Position numbers and translations under genes: made by a program. Under the pieces are notes generated by a model, which saw only the letters and a list, made by a program, of their open reading frames with translations, ran no database searches and was not told the DNA's origin. Source: Eggerthella sp. YY7918 (GTDB lineage Bacteria > Actinomycetota > Coriobacteriia > Coriobacteriales > Eggerthellaceae). From it: a stretch of DNA of 64,000 bases. Location: the NCBI RefSeq assembly GCF_000270285.1, contig NC_015738.1, positions 186,001 through 250,000 of the forward strand, read 5' to 3'. Each line of letters opens with the position of its first letter. Position 1 is the stretch's first letter. Shown one piece after another: positions 40,778 through 47,414 of the stretch.

Positions 40778-41443
40778 ATGAGGGGCAGGGACACAAAAGA
40801 TCGCATCGTGACAGAATCATTCACGCTCTTTGCCGAGCGTGGCTACCACGCCGTTTCGGTGCGTGACATTGCAGCGGCAGTGGGCATTAAAGATGCATCG
40901 CTGTATAACCACTTTCCCAGCAAGCAAGCCATCTTCACGGCTGTGCTGGAAGGTCAGCTTGAACGGATGCGTACCGTATTTGAGCAGCACGGCGTTATGT
41001 ATGCGCCAACAGACGACCCGCAGGGATATGCAGGGGTGTTCGAGGCAACGGAGCAGCGCGTACTGGCAGGGTATCGCTTTTTCTTCGAAGATGACGACAT
41101 GATACGGCTGCGGCGTTTGTTAACCGTAAGTCAGTTTCATGATGAAGGGGCCGCCGAGGCTTTCCGTACCATTTTTATTGAACGACCCTGCGCCATCCAG
41201 CGCTCAATCTTTGAACATCTTATGGCGCTAGGAGATTTTAATCGAGACGATGCGGCCGCCCTTGCGCGAGAGTTTCACGGGCCGGTTCTGCTTTTGCTTT
41301 TGGAAGGAAAAGCGTGGAGCGAGGCAGAACCGCTGATTGGTAATCATCTGCGACGCTTTGCCGCAATGCATCGCGTGCGTCCGGTTGAGGCGGACGCCTC
41401 AAGAGGGGGGAGTCGGACGGTAAAAGAGGAAGGACGCTCGTGA
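40778..41443 (+). CDS. TetR-family transcriptional regulator
   Basis: The helix-turn-helix lies at residues 9-55 (KDRIVTESFTLFAERGYHAVSVRDIAAAVGIKDASLYNHFPSKQAIF). The C-terminal 160 residues are helical and form the ligand/dimer domain, with no recognised ligand. GGAG precedes the ATG. Its GTGA overlap with the flavodoxin-like gene makes a two-gene operon, and ACTAGCA repeats directly upstream suggest autorepression. The ligand is probably linked to redox or drug stress, judging only by the partner gene. Confidence 0.92.
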   Translation: MRGRDTKDRIVTESFTLFAERGYHAVSVRDIAAAVGIKDASLYNHFPSKQAIFTAVLEGQLERMRTVFEQHGVMYAPTDDPQGYAGVFEATEQRVLAGYRFFFEDDDMIRLRRLLTVSQFHDEGAAEAFRTIFIERPCAIQRSIFEHLMALGDFNRDDAAALAREFHGPVLLLLLEGKAWSEAEPLIGNHLRRFAAMHRVRPVEADASRGGSRTVKEEGRS

Positions 41444-41979
41444 AAACAATCGTGGTCTATCGTTCGCAGACTGGCTTCACGCAACGCTATGCGGAATGGA
41501 TCGCTGAGGATCTTGGCTGTGAGGCCGTCTCGCTCGACAAAAATCGCAGCTTCGACGTAGGGGGCTACGACATGGTCGTAGTGGGAGGATGGTTCCACGC
41601 CGGTGGTTTTATGGGGAAGAAGTGGCTTACCCGCGCTCGGGACGCGCATCCGCAGACGCACTTCGTTGTGTTTGCAGTGGGTGCAACTCCCGCTGAGTGG
41701 AGCGATATGGTGGACGAAGCCCTCGCGTGCGAGTTCCCCTCGCCGGAATTCGACGACGTGATGCGCTTCTACCTGCAGGGTGGATTTGCCTACGAACGCC
41801 TTAGTAAGCCGAATAAACTTGCCATGAGACTCTTTTTCAGAGTACAGGAGAAGAACGCAGCCACCGATCCTCGCGCTGCCGAGGCGCTCGCAGGCATGCG
41901 CGAGGGATTTGATGCCACCGATCGCGCGGCCGTCGCTCCCCTTGTCGCTCACGTTTGTAAATGGGATGAGAAAGAATGA
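41440..41979 (+). CDS. Flavodoxin-domain protein
   Basis: The 179-residue protein starts with the FMN phosphate loop pattern VVYRSQTGFTQRYAEWIAEDL, then YDMVVVGGWFHAGGFMGKKWL and HFVVFAVGATP in the ring-binding loops, matching protoporphyrinogen-oxidase/flavodoxin-like folds (Flavodoxin_5 type). The GTG start overlaps the TetR stop by 4 bases. It may be a quinone or flavin electron carrier induced by the TetR ligand. The exact function is open. Confidence 0.82.
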   Translation: MKTIVVYRSQTGFTQRYAEWIAEDLGCEAVSLDKNRSFDVGGYDMVVVGGWFHAGGFMGKKWLTRARDAHPQTHFVVFAVGATPAEWSDMVDEALACEFPSPEFDDVMRFYLQGGFAYERLSKPNKLAMRLFFRVQEKNAATDPRAAEALAGMREGFDATDRAAVAPLVAHVCKWDEKE

Positions 41980-42302
41980 CAGCCTTACTTTGCTGGTAGG
42001 TCTTCCCGGGGAGATGCGTCGGTCGAATCAAGAACTCAATCCTGAAAAGTATCGCTGTAGACAAGTGGTTCGTATGAAATATTAGCATCCAGCTATTCCA
42101 ATCCCAAGAAAGGAATCTGAAAAGCTTGCTCGATGGATATGCTGAAGGTGCCAATAAATAGTGCAGTAGCGAGCTATCAGGGTGTAAACCCATAATTCTC
42201 GGGACATATCGCTGCGTTTGTATGACTCCGAAAACTAACATTAAGCTAATGCGCACTCAATGAGACAACCGTATTATCGATAGATCAGTTCTCCCTCAAA
42301 AC
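41980..42302. other. AT-rich gap at the left edge of the island
   Basis: No gene is seen in about 320 bases. Composition drops visibly in GC from here. It may mark the left junction of an acquired island. Confidence 0.5.
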
Positions 42303-42376
42303 TTGACATTGCGGTCCCGGCGTTGTATAACATAACCAACCGACCGGCCGGTAGATATAAAAATGAGTCTCATTTT
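42303..42376 (+). promoter_or_regulatory. Promoter and operators of the carbamoyltransferase/deiminase cassette
   Basis: TTGACA (42303-42308) and TATAAC (42326-42331) are 17 bases apart, a near-consensus housekeeping promoter. Just downstream ACCGGCCGGT (42343-42352) inside ACCGACCGGCCGGTAG resembles TetR operators. AAAATGAG-T-CTCATTTT (42360-42376) is a second perfect palindrome. The TetR at 46217 is the likely regulator. Confidence 0.75.
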
Positions 42377-42421
42377 GAACTGCGTAGAAGCCTATGAGCA
42401 ATGCAATGAGAGGAGACGACA

Positions 42422-43483
42422 ATGAATAACGGTCTTAAGGGAAAAGATTTCATCAGTATTGCCGATTTTAGTCCTGAGCAGCTGCGATACATCCTTGACC
42501 TTGCAGCGGAGCTCAAGTCGCAGAAAAAATCGGGGGTAGATCTGAGACGCTTCAACGGAAAAAATGCTGTGGCAATTTTTGAGTGGGGTTCAACGCGTAC
42601 GCGTTGTGCTTTTGAAACCTCTTGCAACGACCTTGGTATTTGCTTTACGTACCTTACGAACTCTCATATGGGCGAAAAGGAAACTGTAAAAGACTCTGTA
42701 CGTGTTCTGTCCGCAATGTATGACATGATTATCTATCGCACTTTGAACTCTACAGATTACTTGCGTGATATTGCAAAAATAGTCGACGTGCCTGTTATTG
42801 ATGCGCTTTCGGGAGAAGATCACCCGACTCAAATGCTGGCAGATGCGCTCACCATGGAAGAAGAATGGGGAGGACCAGGTTCATGTAGGGGCAAGAAGTT
42901 TGCTTTTGTAGGCAACTGCGCAGTTGATCCTCTCTGGTATGGTCGTATATGTGCGCTTCTTGGAATGGATTTTTATGCAATTGGCCCTGATATCAAGATG
43001 CTTAAACTTTGCGATGAATGGCGGCAAGAAATTAAGGATTTTTACGCAAAGTGGGCTCCGAATAATAAATTTGTTGAAACCGATGATCTTGATGCTCTTA
43101 AAGGTGTGGATGCAATTGCTACCGAATGGTGGCAGAACAGCATCGTCGATGATAACGGTAAGCCCATAGTTGTTGATAGCTATGAAGCCTTTATGGGCAA
43201 GAAAAACGAGCTTTTTCCTTATCGTGTCTCAAATGACCTTGTTGCACGCACCGACAAAGAAACAGTTGTTCTTCATATGCTTCCTGCGTGCCATAACGCT
43301 GAACACAATATGGCCAAAATGCTTCTTTCAGAAGCGCCTGACGAAGAGTCACGCGAAATCATTCGTGAGGGTTTAGAGATAACCGACGAATGCTTTGAAA
43401 CGCACGCTCACCATATTTTTCGGGAGGCCGAGAATCGACAGCACACAATCAGAGCCGTTGTTGCTGCGGTGATGGGGTTGTAG
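42422..43483 (+). CDS. Ornithine/putrescine-carbamoyltransferase-family enzyme
   Basis: The carbamoyl-phosphate site is GSTRTR near residue 56 and DHPTQ near 139. The second-substrate loop is HMLPACHNAEH, whereas ornithine carbamoyltransferases have HCLP, so the acceptor may differ. The 353 residues are near the normal length. Next to a guanidine deiminase, the reverse reaction is likely: phosphorolysis of an N-carbamoyl product to amine and carbamoyl phosphate, as putrescine carbamoyltransferase does after agmatine deiminase. No carbamate kinase gene is present in the cassette. GGAG-type RBS; AT-rich codon use. Confidence 0.85.
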   Translation: MNNGLKGKDFISIADFSPEQLRYILDLAAELKSQKKSGVDLRRFNGKNAVAIFEWGSTRTRCAFETSCNDLGICFTYLTNSHMGEKETVKDSVRVLSAMYDMIIYRTLNSTDYLRDIAKIVDVPVIDALSGEDHPTQMLADALTMEEEWGGPGSCRGKKFAFVGNCAVDPLWYGRICALLGMDFYAIGPDIKMLKLCDEWRQEIKDFYAKWAPNNKFVETDDLDALKGVDAIATEWWQNSIVDDNGKPIVVDSYEAFMGKKNELFPYRVSNDLVARTDKETVVLHMLPACHNAEHNMAKMLLSEAPDEESREIIREGLEITDECFETHAHHIFREAENRQHTIRAVVAAVMGL

Positions 43484-43526
43484 AGAGATTGCTTTGTCGT
43501 GCGGGCTGTCTTTAGAGGAGGATCAT

Positions 43527-44792
43527 ATGAAGCAGACAGCAGCGTCAGTCAAAAAGTTACACTATGCTTGGATAGTAATGATAGGTTGCGGAATTATGTT
43601 GGTGGGAACGCAAGGTCTCTTTGCGATCCTAGCTGGTAATTTTTTTGTACCAGTAACCGATGATCTCGGTTTTAGTATTTCAAGTCTTGCAGCATATATG
43701 ACGTTTTTGTCCATCGCCTTAGCACTTACTCTTTTTTTGGTTGGAAATATTCTTTCCAAAGTGAATACTCGTATTCTTTTGCCCGGAATGGCCGCAGCTG
43801 AAATTCTAGCATTTGGTCTTATGTCTGTTTATACCGAGCCGTGGATGTGGTACGTATCAGGGATCGTTATTGGCATCGGTATGGCCTTTACTTCGTCGGT
43901 TACTCTTTCAACGATTCTTACGAATTGGTTTAATAAGAAAAGCGGAATGGCTATTGGTTGTGCCTGGGGTATTTCGTCAGTTGTTCTCGCCTGTCTAAGC
44001 CCCGTTGTCCCAATTGTTATTGAGATGATCGGTTGGCGAGGAGCTTATGTGGCCATGGCGATTATAGCTGCTTGCTTTGCCCTTCCGTCGACAGTCTTTC
44101 TTATCCGTTTTAAACCTGCTGATATGGGCTTAGAGCCTTATGGGTATGATCCAAACGAAAGCGACAAAGAAAGTGCTTCAAATGAAAACGGTTCTGGCGT
44201 TGCTGCCCGAAATGTACTTCGCTCATCGTCGTTTGTTCTCGTTATTATGGCTGGAGGTATATTCACCCTCACAACGTTCTTAAATGGATTACTACCTACC
44301 TACGCTAATAGCGTTGGCCTAAGTGCAACAGTAGGTTCTTTAATGATTTCTGCCGCCATGATTGCCGATGTCGTTTTGAATCCTCTTGTTGGATTTACGT
44401 GCGATAAAGTTGGGGCAATTAAAGCTGTATTTGTATGGACACTTGTCAGTATGGCCTCATATGTAATGTTGGAATGTACCGCCCAGAGTGCTGGTCTATC
44501 CATCCTTGCCGCCGCCGTTAACGACGTGCCCTATGCTCTTCTTGGCGTTGGTATGGCGTCTATTGTTAGGGAGATGTATGGGGCAAAAGACTTCGGAAAG
44601 ATATTTGCATTTATTATAGGAATTTCAAGCTTGATCGGATGCTTTGGAACATGGTTGTTAAGCACTATTTTTGAAATTTCTGGAGGGTTCACGGCAGTAT
44701 TTGTCTACTGTATTGCTTCCGACATAGTCTTTTTAATTCTTCTTATATTTGCTCGTCGGTCAAGTAAAAAACTCCCTGTCGAGACCGCTTGA
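43527..44792 (+). CDS. MFS transporter of the guanidine/ureido cassette
   Basis: The 421-residue protein has 12 helices and resembles the OFA/monocarboxylate-like MFS at 36204 (GIGMAFTSSVTLSTILTNWFNKKSGMAIG; GFTCDKVGAIKAV). I chose ATG 43527, preceded by AGAGGAGG. It lies between carbamoyltransferase and deiminase and shares their AT-rich composition, so it most likely imports the guanidino substrate or exchanges it for product. Typical agmatine/putrescine antiporters are APC-type, so an MFS here is a difference. Confidence 0.85.
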   Translation: MKQTAASVKKLHYAWIVMIGCGIMLVGTQGLFAILAGNFFVPVTDDLGFSISSLAAYMTFLSIALALTLFLVGNILSKVNTRILLPGMAAAEILAFGLMSVYTEPWMWYVSGIVIGIGMAFTSSVTLSTILTNWFNKKSGMAIGCAWGISSVVLACLSPVVPIVIEMIGWRGAYVAMAIIAACFALPSTVFLIRFKPADMGLEPYGYDPNESDKESASNENGSGVAARNVLRSSSFVLVIMAGGIFTLTTFLNGLLPTYANSVGLSATVGSLMISAAMIADVVLNPLVGFTCDKVGAIKAVFVWTLVSMASYVMLECTAQSAGLSILAAAVNDVPYALLGVGMASIVREMYGAKDFGKIFAFIIGISSLIGCFGTWLLSTIFEISGGFTAVFVYCIASDIVFLILLIFARRSSKKLPVETA

Positions 44793-44859
44793 TTATTGCG
44801 GTTGGCAAGGTGCTCTATTTACCAACTTTTATAAATACTTTTTCAAAGGGAGACATATC

Positions 44860-46092
44860 ATGAATGAAACATATCGTTTTCCGGGAGAATTCGAACCTCA
44901 GCAAGCCGTATTTGCGTGTTGGGTTCCACCCGAAGAGCCGGTTGCAGGATACGATGCAGAGTCGGTATGCGTTGAAATAGTAAAGAATCTCATCGATGAA
45001 GTTCAGCTTTTCATTAATTGTCCTCCATATGTTAGCGTCGATCATGTTTCCACCCTTTTAGTGAAAAATGGTGTTGAAGTACAAAAAATCAAGTTTCTCC
45101 AGATTGATGACCCCAATCTGTACAACCGAGACAATGGTGCCAATATTATGATCGATGGCAAAGGCCATATGGTGTGCATCAATCAAGGCTTCAATATGTA
45201 CGCGCTACGTGAGTCGACCAATTTGGAATGTATTGCAGCTCGCCGCGCTGGTTTACATCAGGCTATAGAAGTAGGGTGTACCGACTTTATCAATTCGAAT
45301 ATTTGTTCAGAAGGTGGTAACAAAGAATTCAATGGACGTGGTGTCCTTATTGCCGTGGAGTCTACAGAGTGCGCAAGTCGCAATCCGCACTACTCAAAAG
45401 AGGAAATTGAGGCCGAGTATAAGCGAATTTTCAATTTGAAGAAAATCATCTGGCTTCCGTCACCTTTGTTAAGCGACGAGAATTTATATCAAGGCCCACT
45501 CGATGTGGTTCATGGTAAGACGATCTTTGGATCAAGCTGCGCTGGACATACAGACGAAATGTGTCGCTTTATTGGAGTGAACAAGGTGCTGCTTGCTGAA
45601 ATTACCGAAGAAGAGGCATCAGCAAGCCGCTCTTTACAGGTATCAAAAGAACGATTGGATGCTGCTTATGAGATTCTGCGCGAATCGACGGACGCAGACG
45701 GGAACGCCTTTGATATTGTTCGCATGCCTTTTCCTGAACCTATAGAATACACTCTCCGACCGACAGATTCTTTGTACTATATCTTTCGAAACGAACTTGC
45801 CAATGGAGTTTTTTCTGATGGAACCCCTTGGCCAGATGGAGTCGAACTTACATTTCTTGCCGCAGGTGGATACTGCAATTTTCTCATATGCAATGGTGTC
45901 GTTGTTGGCCAAAAATATTGGCGAGAAGGTATGAGCGAAAAGGTTAAAGAAAAGGACATTCGCGCTGAACGCATATTGAAAAAATGCTTTCCCGACCGCC
46001 GAATAGTGATGATTAATACTACTGCACTAAATTTGTGCGGTGGGGGCGTGCATTGTTGGACGAAGAATGTTGCTCGTGCTGATATCAGGTAA
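44860..46092 (+). CDS. Agmatine deiminase / peptidylarginine deiminase-family guanidine hydrolase
   Basis: This 410-residue enzyme shows the catalytic set of the guanidino-group hydrolases: RDNGAN (Asp) near residue 90, SCAGHTDEM (His/Asp) near 228, and CGGGVHCWTKN (nucleophile Cys) near 398. Agmatine deiminases end GGGxIHCITQQ and are shorter, so the WTKN variation and extra length leave the substrate open: agmatine, arginine derivative or another guanidino compound. I chose ATG 44860, preceded by AAAGGGAG; the frame from 44749 overlaps the MFS gene. Confidence 0.85.
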   Translation: MNETYRFPGEFEPQQAVFACWVPPEEPVAGYDAESVCVEIVKNLIDEVQLFINCPPYVSVDHVSTLLVKNGVEVQKIKFLQIDDPNLYNRDNGANIMIDGKGHMVCINQGFNMYALRESTNLECIAARRAGLHQAIEVGCTDFINSNICSEGGNKEFNGRGVLIAVESTECASRNPHYSKEEIEAEYKRIFNLKKIIWLPSPLLSDENLYQGPLDVVHGKTIFGSSCAGHTDEMCRFIGVNKVLLAEITEEEASASRSLQVSKERLDAAYEILRESTDADGNAFDIVRMPFPEPIEYTLRPTDSLYYIFRNELANGVFSDGTPWPDGVELTFLAAGGYCNFLICNGVVVGQKYWREGMSEKVKEKDIRAERILKKCFPDRRIVMINTTALNLCGGGVHCWTKNVARADIR

Positions 46093-46100
46093 AAAGCAAG

Positions 46101-46134
46101 TGCGGGGCTTCGTGGATATAAGCGAGGTCCCGCA
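46101..46134 (+). terminator. Hairpin after the deiminase gene
   Basis: TGCGGG (46101-46106) pairs with CCCGCA (46129-46134), with inner partial pairing. The T-tract is weak. A second repeat GGCATTTT/AAAATGCC (46143-46150/46164-46171) lies before the TetR gene and may be its operator. Confidence 0.6.
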
Positions 46135-46216
46135 ATCAGATAGGCATTTTGCCGAAATACGCTAAAATGCCATTATTAAGGTCATAGTACATTTTTCAGA
46201 TATGAGATATGCGTAG

Positions 46217-46804
46217 ATGATTATGGTAGAACACTCGACAAAAGAAAAGATAGTTCAAGCGATGTATCATCTTGTGGCCGAGAATGGCTACGACAAAACA
46301 TCGATCAGTAGCATAGCTAAGGTTGTCGGCATTTCAAAGGCGACGGTTTACTTTCATTTCGAATCAAAAGAGCAAATACTTGTTGAACTCATGCATTATA
46401 TCGATGAAACTTCCGATCCCTCCCTTGCTAACGGCGTACTTGCTTCCCGATCTGCAAAAGAGTTTAAAGAGCGGCTTATCGAGTTTGGACATACTGTAAT
46501 AGGTTCTTATCGAAATGATGTCGAGCGGCGTATGGTTATTGCAGAAATCGCGCTTGGAATGGCTCGAAACCCTACTTTGGAGCAATATCAAGCTCAAGAT
46601 ATCGTGAGCACTCTAAGTCTTTACGGCAAAATTGCCGAACATGGGCAGAAGCTTGGAGCCATTCCTGCGACAGCCGAATCGAAAAATATTGCTCAAAGAA
46701 TTCAGGTGCTGATGCTGGGGTTAAGCCAAGCGATTCTTTACAACGAGCCCATAGATGCCCTTTCGGTATGGGATTCATCAGTTGAGCAAATGCTTTCTGT
46801 CTGA
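46217..46804 (+). CDS. TetR-family regulator of the cassette
   Basis: The helix-turn-helix is at residues 8-55 (TKEKIVQAMYHLVAENGYDKTSISSIAKVVGISKATVYFHFESKEQIL). The C-terminal domain is helical, 195 residues in total. No strong RBS is visible; ATG 46217 and ATG 46223 are both possible. Its AT-rich composition matches the three preceding genes, so it belongs to the island and probably controls the ACCGGCCGGT promoter at 42303. Confidence 0.9.
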   Translation: MIMVEHSTKEKIVQAMYHLVAENGYDKTSISSIAKVVGISKATVYFHFESKEQILVELMHYIDETSDPSLANGVLASRSAKEFKERLIEFGHTVIGSYRNDVERRMVIAEIALGMARNPTLEQYQAQDIVSTLSLYGKIAEHGQKLGAIPATAESKNIAQRIQVLMLGLSQAILYNEPIDALSVWDSSVEQMLSV

Positions 46805-46817
46805 CAGGGCAGGTAAT

Positions 46818-47414
46818 TTAAAAAGCTTGCCCGATGAGCAGATTGAAAAGAGCGCCGAAGACGGCACCGATGGCAACAGCTACCAATACGAGTACGATGC
46901 CCTTGATTACGCGATGCTTGCGGGCGCGTTGGCTCTTCAGATTGTCCCGGTCGATAGGCTCGCCTTTCATGAAGGCATCGATCTCGCGGTAGGTGACCAG
47001 GTTGTGCTCCTTCTTCATGCGTTCCACTTTTATCAGAAGGTACATGCCGATGCCCCACACCAAAAGACCGATGATGACACTGGGGACGACCCCCCAGCCC
47101 CAGAAGAGAACACCGCACACGCCAGCGACTGCACCCACGATGGCAATCGCCATTCCCACGGTCGCATACACGTTCATTTTCTGCGCATCATTCTTCAGTA
47201 CATTTTTCATGGCTTCCACATCTCCTTTGATCAGTTCGTCTATCGTCGTGTCGAAGAGGATGCTGAGGAGCAGAAGGCTTTCCACATCGGGGTAGGTCTT
47301 GTCGGTTTCCCAGTTCGATACCGTCTGGCGTGATACGTAAATGCGCTCGGCGAGGTCTTCCTGAGACATTCCGCGTTCCATTCGATACTCTTTGATGTGT
47401 GCGCCAAGTTCCAC
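46818..47414 (-). CDS. XRE-family regulator with C-terminal membrane domain
   Basis: Residues 4-60 form a Cro/C1 helix-turn-helix (LGAHIKEYRMERGMSQEDLAERIYVSRQTVSNWETDKTYP). Three hydrophobic segments follow (around residues 85-105, 110-125 and 175-195), making it a membrane-tethered repressor. I chose GTG 47414, preceded by AAGGGA; the product is 198 residues. TCAAA-N4-TTTGA palindromes lie 50-110 bases upstream. It is convergent with the TetR gene. Membrane-bound XRE regulators often respond to envelope signals. Confidence 0.87.
   Translation of the reverse strand: MELGAHIKEYRMERGMSQEDLAERIYVSRQTVSNWETDKTYPDVESLLLLSILFDTTIDELIKGDVEAMKNVLKNDAQKMNVYATVGMAIAIVGAVAGVCGVLFWGWGVVPSVIIGLLVWGIGMYLLIKVERMKKEHNLVTYREIDAFMKGEPIDRDNLKSQRARKHRVIKGIVLVLVAVAIGAVFGALFNLLIGQAF

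Follow-up and report, generated by a model that had tools for sequence, protein, structure and literature searches.

A deiminase–carbamoyltransferase cassette of Coriobacteriia that probably serves a guanidino compound other than agmatine or arginine

The closest described systems are the agmatine deiminase pathway, which leads from agmatine through carbamoylputrescine to putrescine, and the arginine pathway ArcABC, in which carbamoyl phosphate is converted to ATP by carbamate kinase. In Eggerthella lenta, four agmatine deiminase operons have been counted, two of them complete and two partial, and for one complete operon, which was not induced by agmatine, a related compound was suggested (PMC10234575). 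Here we analyzed a four-gene cassette within 64,000 nucleotides of Eggerthella sp. YY7918 (contig NC_015738.1, positions 186,001 to 250,000, forward strand), hereafter the window, in whose numbering all coordinates are given. Like the agmatine pathway, the cassette and its relatives combine a deiminase of family PF04371 (PAD_porph), a carbamoyltransferase, a carrier and, in some loci, a kinase, with the same predicted chemistry; unlike it, the cassette enzymes fall below the curated cut-offs, their substrate-recognition residues are changed, and the carrier belongs to the major facilitator superfamily (MFS) instead of the amino acid permeases. The cassette probably encodes an energy-yielding deiminase pathway whose guanidino substrate is neither agmatine nor arginine. 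A sequence-only reading had already proposed such a substrate; the proposal is supported by the missed cut-offs, the replaced amine-binding residues, the absent ornithine and putrescine signatures and the two separate agmatine clusters of the genome, whereas its arguments from a missing kinase and from an HMLP motif fail.

The deiminase gene (44860..46092, + strand) encodes a pentein deiminase that matches PF04371 with 160.7 bits against a threshold of 25 and ends, as had been pointed out, in GGGVHCWTKN. Against the agmatine deiminase models it reaches 119.1 bits (TIGR03380, cut-off 381.8) and 129.5 bits (NF010070, cut-off 483), and with 410 amino acids it is indeed longer than the canonical agmatine deiminases of the same genome (370 and 386 amino acids as trimmed). 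In the alignment, the catalytic residues D91, E151, H230, D232 and C399 are kept in the window protein (in RD, EGG, HTD and HC), and an arginine replaces the histidine just before the cysteine in the relative at L084. Because both guanidine-binding aspartates are kept (NRD, HTD), unlike in the putative citrullinase CtlX (PMC9007349), a guanidino rather than a ureido substrate is suggested. In the agmatine deiminase of Medicago, Asp220 binds the agmatine amine directly and Asp89 binds it through water (PMC6447857). At the aligned positions, Asp220 is replaced by serine and Asp89 by asparagine or serine in 20 of 20 rows, and the channel residue Trp91 corresponds to tyrosine in 18 and serine in 2. 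The substrate may possibly have a tail shorter than that of agmatine.

The carbamoyltransferase gene (42422..43483, + strand; PF02729 and PF00185) meets the marks SxRT, HPxQ and HxLP of the transcarbamylase superfamily with STRT (within FEWGSTRTR), HPTQ and HMLP. It scores 201.4 bits against the ornithine carbamoyltransferase (OTC) model TIGR00658 (cut-off 280.85) and 167.9 bits against the putrescine carbamoyltransferase (PTC) model TIGR04384 (cut-off 500). OTCs are marked by HCLP and by two ornithine-binding elements, the lysine of FxKxSxRT and DxxxSMG (PMC4581275), and PTCs by a glutamine two residues before STRT, a (Y/W)(G/W)(V/L/I)x loop, HCLP and a C-terminal extension of about 20 residues (PMC3282769, PMC4581275). 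The cassette transferase has FEWGSTRT and a TEWWQNS loop, with neither SMG nor YGLY, and the window protein lacks the PTC extension, ending where OTCs end. Tryptophan stands at the specificity position, which holds lysine in OTC and glutamine in PTC, in all 20 aligned cassette transferases. HMLP in place of HCLP, on which the sequence-only reading had leaned, is present as described; it is weak evidence, since 8 of the 20 rows carry HELP (11 carry HMLP, and the remaining row is incomplete) and the side chain at the second HxLP position makes no substrate contact in known structures (PMC4581275). A YGR motif near residue 175, resembling that of aspartate carbamoyltransferase (ATCase), was considered and rejected, as its arginine lies off the aspartate-binding position when residues are counted by hand to the next strand.

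The third protein (43527..44792, + strand) matches MFS_1 and would be an importer or exchanger of the guanidino substrate. That it is of MFS rather than APC type, as first proposed, is borne out by comparison with the agmatine clusters of the same genome, which have AA_permease_2 carriers. Carriers from 20 loci, the window's included, were aligned, and all 24 sequences have D281 and N285. The D281 position aligns with Asn276 and N285 with R280 of the lactate carrier SfMCT, in which Arg280 of transmembrane helix 8 binds carboxylate (PMC6573034). As Asp281 and Asn285 stand where SfMCT has Asn276 and Arg280, and the carboxylate-binding arginine of SLC16/MCT-type carriers is asparagine in all 24, the protein is not a typical monocarboxylate carrier; a pocket with an acidic residue and no arginine would be suited to a cation.

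The genome of Eggerthella sp. YY7918, one contig of 3,123,671 bases, has PAD_porph genes at 917 and 922 kb as well, each in a cluster of PTC, amino acid permease and agmatine deiminase, the second cluster being followed by arcC. Agmatine is thus already provided for. Besides the cassette enzyme there are six transcarbamylases: arcB, three PTCs, an odd enzyme with HVLP and one ATCase-like protein. As controls, the two agmatine deiminases (565 and 481 bits), the three PTCs (559, 545 and 563) and arcB (409) pass the cut-offs that the cassette enzymes miss; the cassette enzymes of E. lenta, at 138.2, 152.0 and 216.4 bits, fall short just as the window's do. The HVLP enzyme, encoded alone at 926 kb (L042:18188-19294), has an EEWCWGR loop and, with 380.9 bits, stays under the PTC cut-off of 500; a relative (42%) adjoins amino-acid-permease-like and agmatine-deiminase-like genes in L085. 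Elsewhere, at 1917-1923 kb (L044:5885-12396), a PTC is grouped with two carriers of the Na+/H+-antiporter family, a further membrane protein and a carbamate kinase, with no deiminase seen there; this operon possibly uses carbamoylputrescine.

This background bears on the alternative that survives best, a redundant and diverged agmatine pathway. It shares enzyme families and logic with the cassette, agmatine deiminases are among the deiminase's relatives of solved structure, and the cassette is presumably among the four agmatine deiminase operons counted in E. lenta (PMC10234575). Against it, the cassette enzymes miss cut-offs that the two canonical agmatine clusters of the same genome pass, the amine-binding acids are replaced in every row, PTC signatures are absent and the carrier family is different, so we consider it unlikely.

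In the deiminase tree, the cassette sequences form a clade of 20 rows with support of 100/98, far from the pair of canonical agmatine deiminases; the program flagged several long branches, the window row among them. The transferase tree likewise gives a cassette clade (19 rows, support 100/99). It pairs with a clade of four, and the group so formed has as its sister arcB, the single OTC included, and not the PTCs; here the bootstrap had not settled and the outgroup branch is very long. Most subclades agree between the trees, as expected for enzymes inherited together, and the window copies of both enzymes are deep single branches. The nearest relatives of both are the sister pairs of Coriobacteriia (L092-L095), whose transferase also has HMLP; they differ from the cassette in FEM instead of FEW, a TENW loop, a deiminase that keeps tryptophan at D-3, and carriers of the Na+/H+-antiporter family, amino acid permease or DcuC type. 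These pairs perhaps serve yet another substrate. The PAD_porph proteins of Bacteroidota (L009-L023) are 30-36% identical to the window deiminase across most of that protein and in several cases share its SEGG; unlike it, they carry lipoprotein-like leaders (judged by eye) and tryptophan at D-3 in the 15 rows aligned. Searches of these Bacteroidota loci, some of them incomplete, gave no match to a cassette-type transferase or carrier. Their neighbours were also considered as a clue to the substrate, which was rejected: they look scattered in the 11 of 15 loci with frames listed, judging from the frame starts alone and without a family search.

Cassette and ArcABC share a transferase close to arcB and, as predicted for the cassette, the conversion of carbamoyl phosphate to ATP by carbamate kinase, and the agmatine pathway, with its PTC, stands further off on this point. 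A deiminase for arginine, methylarginine or peptidyl-arginine that supplies an ornithine transferase would fit the sister position to arcB, a Pfam family named for peptidylarginine deiminase, and the lipoprotein-like starts, by eye, of the nearest relatives found outside Coriobacteriia. The cassette differs from ArcABC, however, in its PAD_porph deiminase and in lacking both ornithine-binding elements, DxxxSMG and the lysine of FxKxSxRT, and the window deiminase begins MNETYRFPGEFE, has no leader by eye and is encoded beside a membrane carrier; arginine-type substrates therefore appear improbable.

The distribution of the cassette was assessed in 396 Coriobacteriia genomes with a profile of 8 cassette deiminases (E<=1e-60) and a transferase profile (E<=1e-85). 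The deiminase clade was found in 24 genomes and the cassette-type transferase in 22, all of them among the 24; the remaining two (G221 and G306) carry the sister pair. In a phylum set, the deiminase profile matched 4 of 396 genomes, all in the window's own order. Carriers include the type strain of E. lenta (G070, at 528.6-532.4 kb), with which Eggerthella sp. YY7918 shares a family group, as well as Collinsella aerofaciens, Parvibacter caecicola, an uncultured Parvibacter, Raoultibacter timonensis, an uncultured Adlercreutzia, Candidatus Aveggerthella and another member of Eggerthellaceae; no cassette match was obtained by profile search in G136, of the E. lenta genus group. PAD_porph matches lie at four places in the genome of E. 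lenta, whose cassette is probably one of the operons counted as partial in PMC10234575. A pattern-based scan of the collection cannot show absence from other phyla, because it missed E. lenta. The deiminase matches of G315 and G306 (L066 and L068) were flagged for one TAG each; the frames in L090 and L092 are full length, and the TAG is probably a normal stop.

Deiminase and transferase genes adjoin in 21 of the 22 genomes, while in the window the carrier gene alone lies between them by coordinates. Of the 22 loci, 20 were examined further (G233 and G314 were left out). The order deiminase–transferase–carrier holds in 18 of these and the carrier comes first in L090; the window has transferase–carrier–deiminase. 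An arcC gene follows the carrier in 5 of the 20, and contig ends lie too near the carrier to judge this in L083, L087 and L090. The cassette of L091 (11521-13836) also includes an Abhydrolase_3 gene and another MFS carrier; this single case may hint at an ester or amide precursor. The absence of a carbamate kinase, taken earlier as a sign of another substrate, is real within the window's cassette; as an argument it fails, given the arcC genes of those five loci and the seven amino-acid-kinase-family matches in the genome, three of which are carbamate kinases by sequence (923.9, 2062.7 and 1917.0 kb). The one at 923.9 kb, the sole one checked, passes the arcC cut-off. Because the genome encodes carbamate kinases, carbamoyl phosphate is usable in the cell.

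These gene neighbourhoods also speak to a biosynthetic use, in which the transferase would carbamoylate an amine and the deiminase would serve another step, as in antibiotic clusters. Some transferases that act on diaminopropionate and related substrates do have an altered HxLP, namely HDLP (PMC4581275). The conserved unit, though, comprises two degradation-type enzymes, a carrier and a regulator only (biosynthetic genes were not searched for systematically), and the kinase genes in five loci point to degradation; we regard a biosynthetic role as no more probable than arginine-type substrates.

The cassette is preceded by a sigma-70 type promoter, TTGACA-17-TATAAC (42303..42331, + strand), which agrees with the consensus at 11 of 12 bases and thus deserves the description near-consensus that it had been given. 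Only two sites of this quality occur in the whole 64 kb, and shuffles of the 442-base intergenic stretch average 0.02; an automated promoter scan passed over it because its rule demands T at the last -10 position. In six relatives with a TetR-type regulator (L085-L089 and L091), TTGAC[G/T]-17-TAT[T/A][A/G]T was read before the deiminase gene. Both palindromes reported for this region are present. The first, CGACCGGCCGGTAG at 42341-42354, is part of a probable TetR operator, ACCGACCGGCCGGTAG (42339..42354, no strand assigned), so called because similar palindromes stand at the same place, near the -10 element, in relatives: ACCGACCGGTAGGT behind the promoters of L085 and L086, and TTACTTACCGGTAGGTAA in L087-L089. 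In the Collinsella loci, ACCGAACGGTAGG lies near the -10 element in a different placement, and L091 has an unlike palindrome behind its deiminase promoter. The 9-mer ACCGACCGG occurs once in the window, counting both strands, and the relatives' half-site CGGTAGGTA has no exact copy there. The second palindrome, AAAATGAGTCTCATTTT (42360..42376, no strand assigned), is perfect (8+1+8), and no counterpart was found in the loci of relatives; it is uncommon and yet weak evidence, as arms scoring at least 9 arose in 6 of 200 single-base shuffles of a 222-base stretch, and at least 8 in 25 of 200. The fourth gene (46217..46804, + strand) encodes a TetR-family protein (TetR_N), the predicted repressor of the cassette. 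TetR homologues (27-40% identity) are divergently encoded at the operon start in 10 of the 20 loci, 9 beside the deiminase and that of L090 beside the carrier, and a LuxR-type protein is encoded there in 9; the window's TetR gene is at the cassette end.

Gene-by-gene computation upheld the low GC by which the four genes had been set apart from their neighbours: 0.433-0.450, with 0.37-0.42 at third codon positions, against 0.535-0.651 and 0.55-0.86 in the ten flanking genes and a window mean of 0.559. The cassette as a whole has a GC of 0.439 against 0.569 in its surroundings, and the two are at most 0.081 apart in 17 of the 19 other loci, those for which GC was compared. The sister species G112, the only one compared, gave no cassette match by profile search, and no plasmid carriage was matched at E<=1e-30. 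The window copy was likely acquired horizontally, and recently, from an AT-richer source. An empty insertion site is not demonstrable, because the flanks lie on different contigs in the sister species. An imperfect direct repeat (86%; 42114-42135 with 46815-46836) near both ends of the AT-rich segment may be chance. Upstream of the cassette (40778-41979) is a pair of TetR and flavodoxin-like genes, whose homologues (67 and 72%) are paired in the sister species with no cassette behind them. That the segment is merely decaying foreign DNA without present function would agree with its atypical GC and its absence from that sister species, and is very improbable given four open frames, kept catalytic residues and a promoter-operator element like that of relatives.

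For the guanidino pathway, we envisage that the MFS carrier would import the guanidino compound, perhaps in exchange for the amine product, and that the deiminase, by way of a covalent cysteine intermediate, would hydrolyse the guanidino group, releasing ammonia and leaving a ureido group. The carbamoyltransferase would then phosphorolyse the N-carbamoyl-amine to the amine, predicted to be other than ornithine or putrescine, and carbamoyl phosphate, from which a carbamate kinase whose gene lies elsewhere in the genome would form ATP from ADP, with release of ammonia and CO2. TetR, bound immediately behind the -10 element, would repress the promoter at 42303, and would be released by substrate or product; transport and regulation are here predicted from gene families and context.

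Several points weigh against this interpretation. The acid of the transferase 240s loop is not lost and aligns as glutamate; with arcB nearest among transferases of other kinds, this leaves room for an ornithine-like or diamine acceptor. Residues of the deiminase were mapped by alignment at 22-27% identity to the agmatine deiminases of the genome, L091 is placed differently in the two enzyme trees, and substrates may differ between the HELP and HMLP subclades. In 12 of the 20 loci no kinase gene was seen next to that of the carrier, and the catabolic direction is itself a deduction by analogy. In the genome searches, no more than 4-5 candidates were scored per genome, under two different E-value limits. 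We found no assay of any enzyme of the cassette clade in the literature.

Nor did the literature yield a description of an energy pathway of deiminase and carbamoyltransferase for another guanidino compound, or anything on named deiminases for such compounds; a search on Eggerthella, carbamoyltransferases and guanidino compounds found work on uraemic toxins, in whose accessible text the pathway is not described. We lean towards the view that Coriobacteriia, the E. lenta type strain and Collinsella among them, ferment a further guanidino compound besides arginine and agmatine, one whose energy-yielding breakdown by deiminase and carbamoyltransferase we did not find described in the literature searched. 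Genes of this type are easily misread as agmatine deiminase operons. The transferase clade offers a defined change of specificity for study, with tryptophan at the Lys/Gln position and a new 240s loop, and the cassette, whose distribution among gut Coriobacteriia is patchy, is a gene set open to testing. If the substrate is of host or dietary origin (guanidinoacetate, guanidinobutyrate, creatine and methylguanidine are candidates only), it would link these bacteria to uraemic or creatine-related metabolite pools. E. lenta gains energy from arginine-type chemistry. Since the species does not metabolise sugars (PMC10234575) and lives on such chemistry, an ATP source so far unrecognised would, if the pathway is as proposed, bear on its niche.

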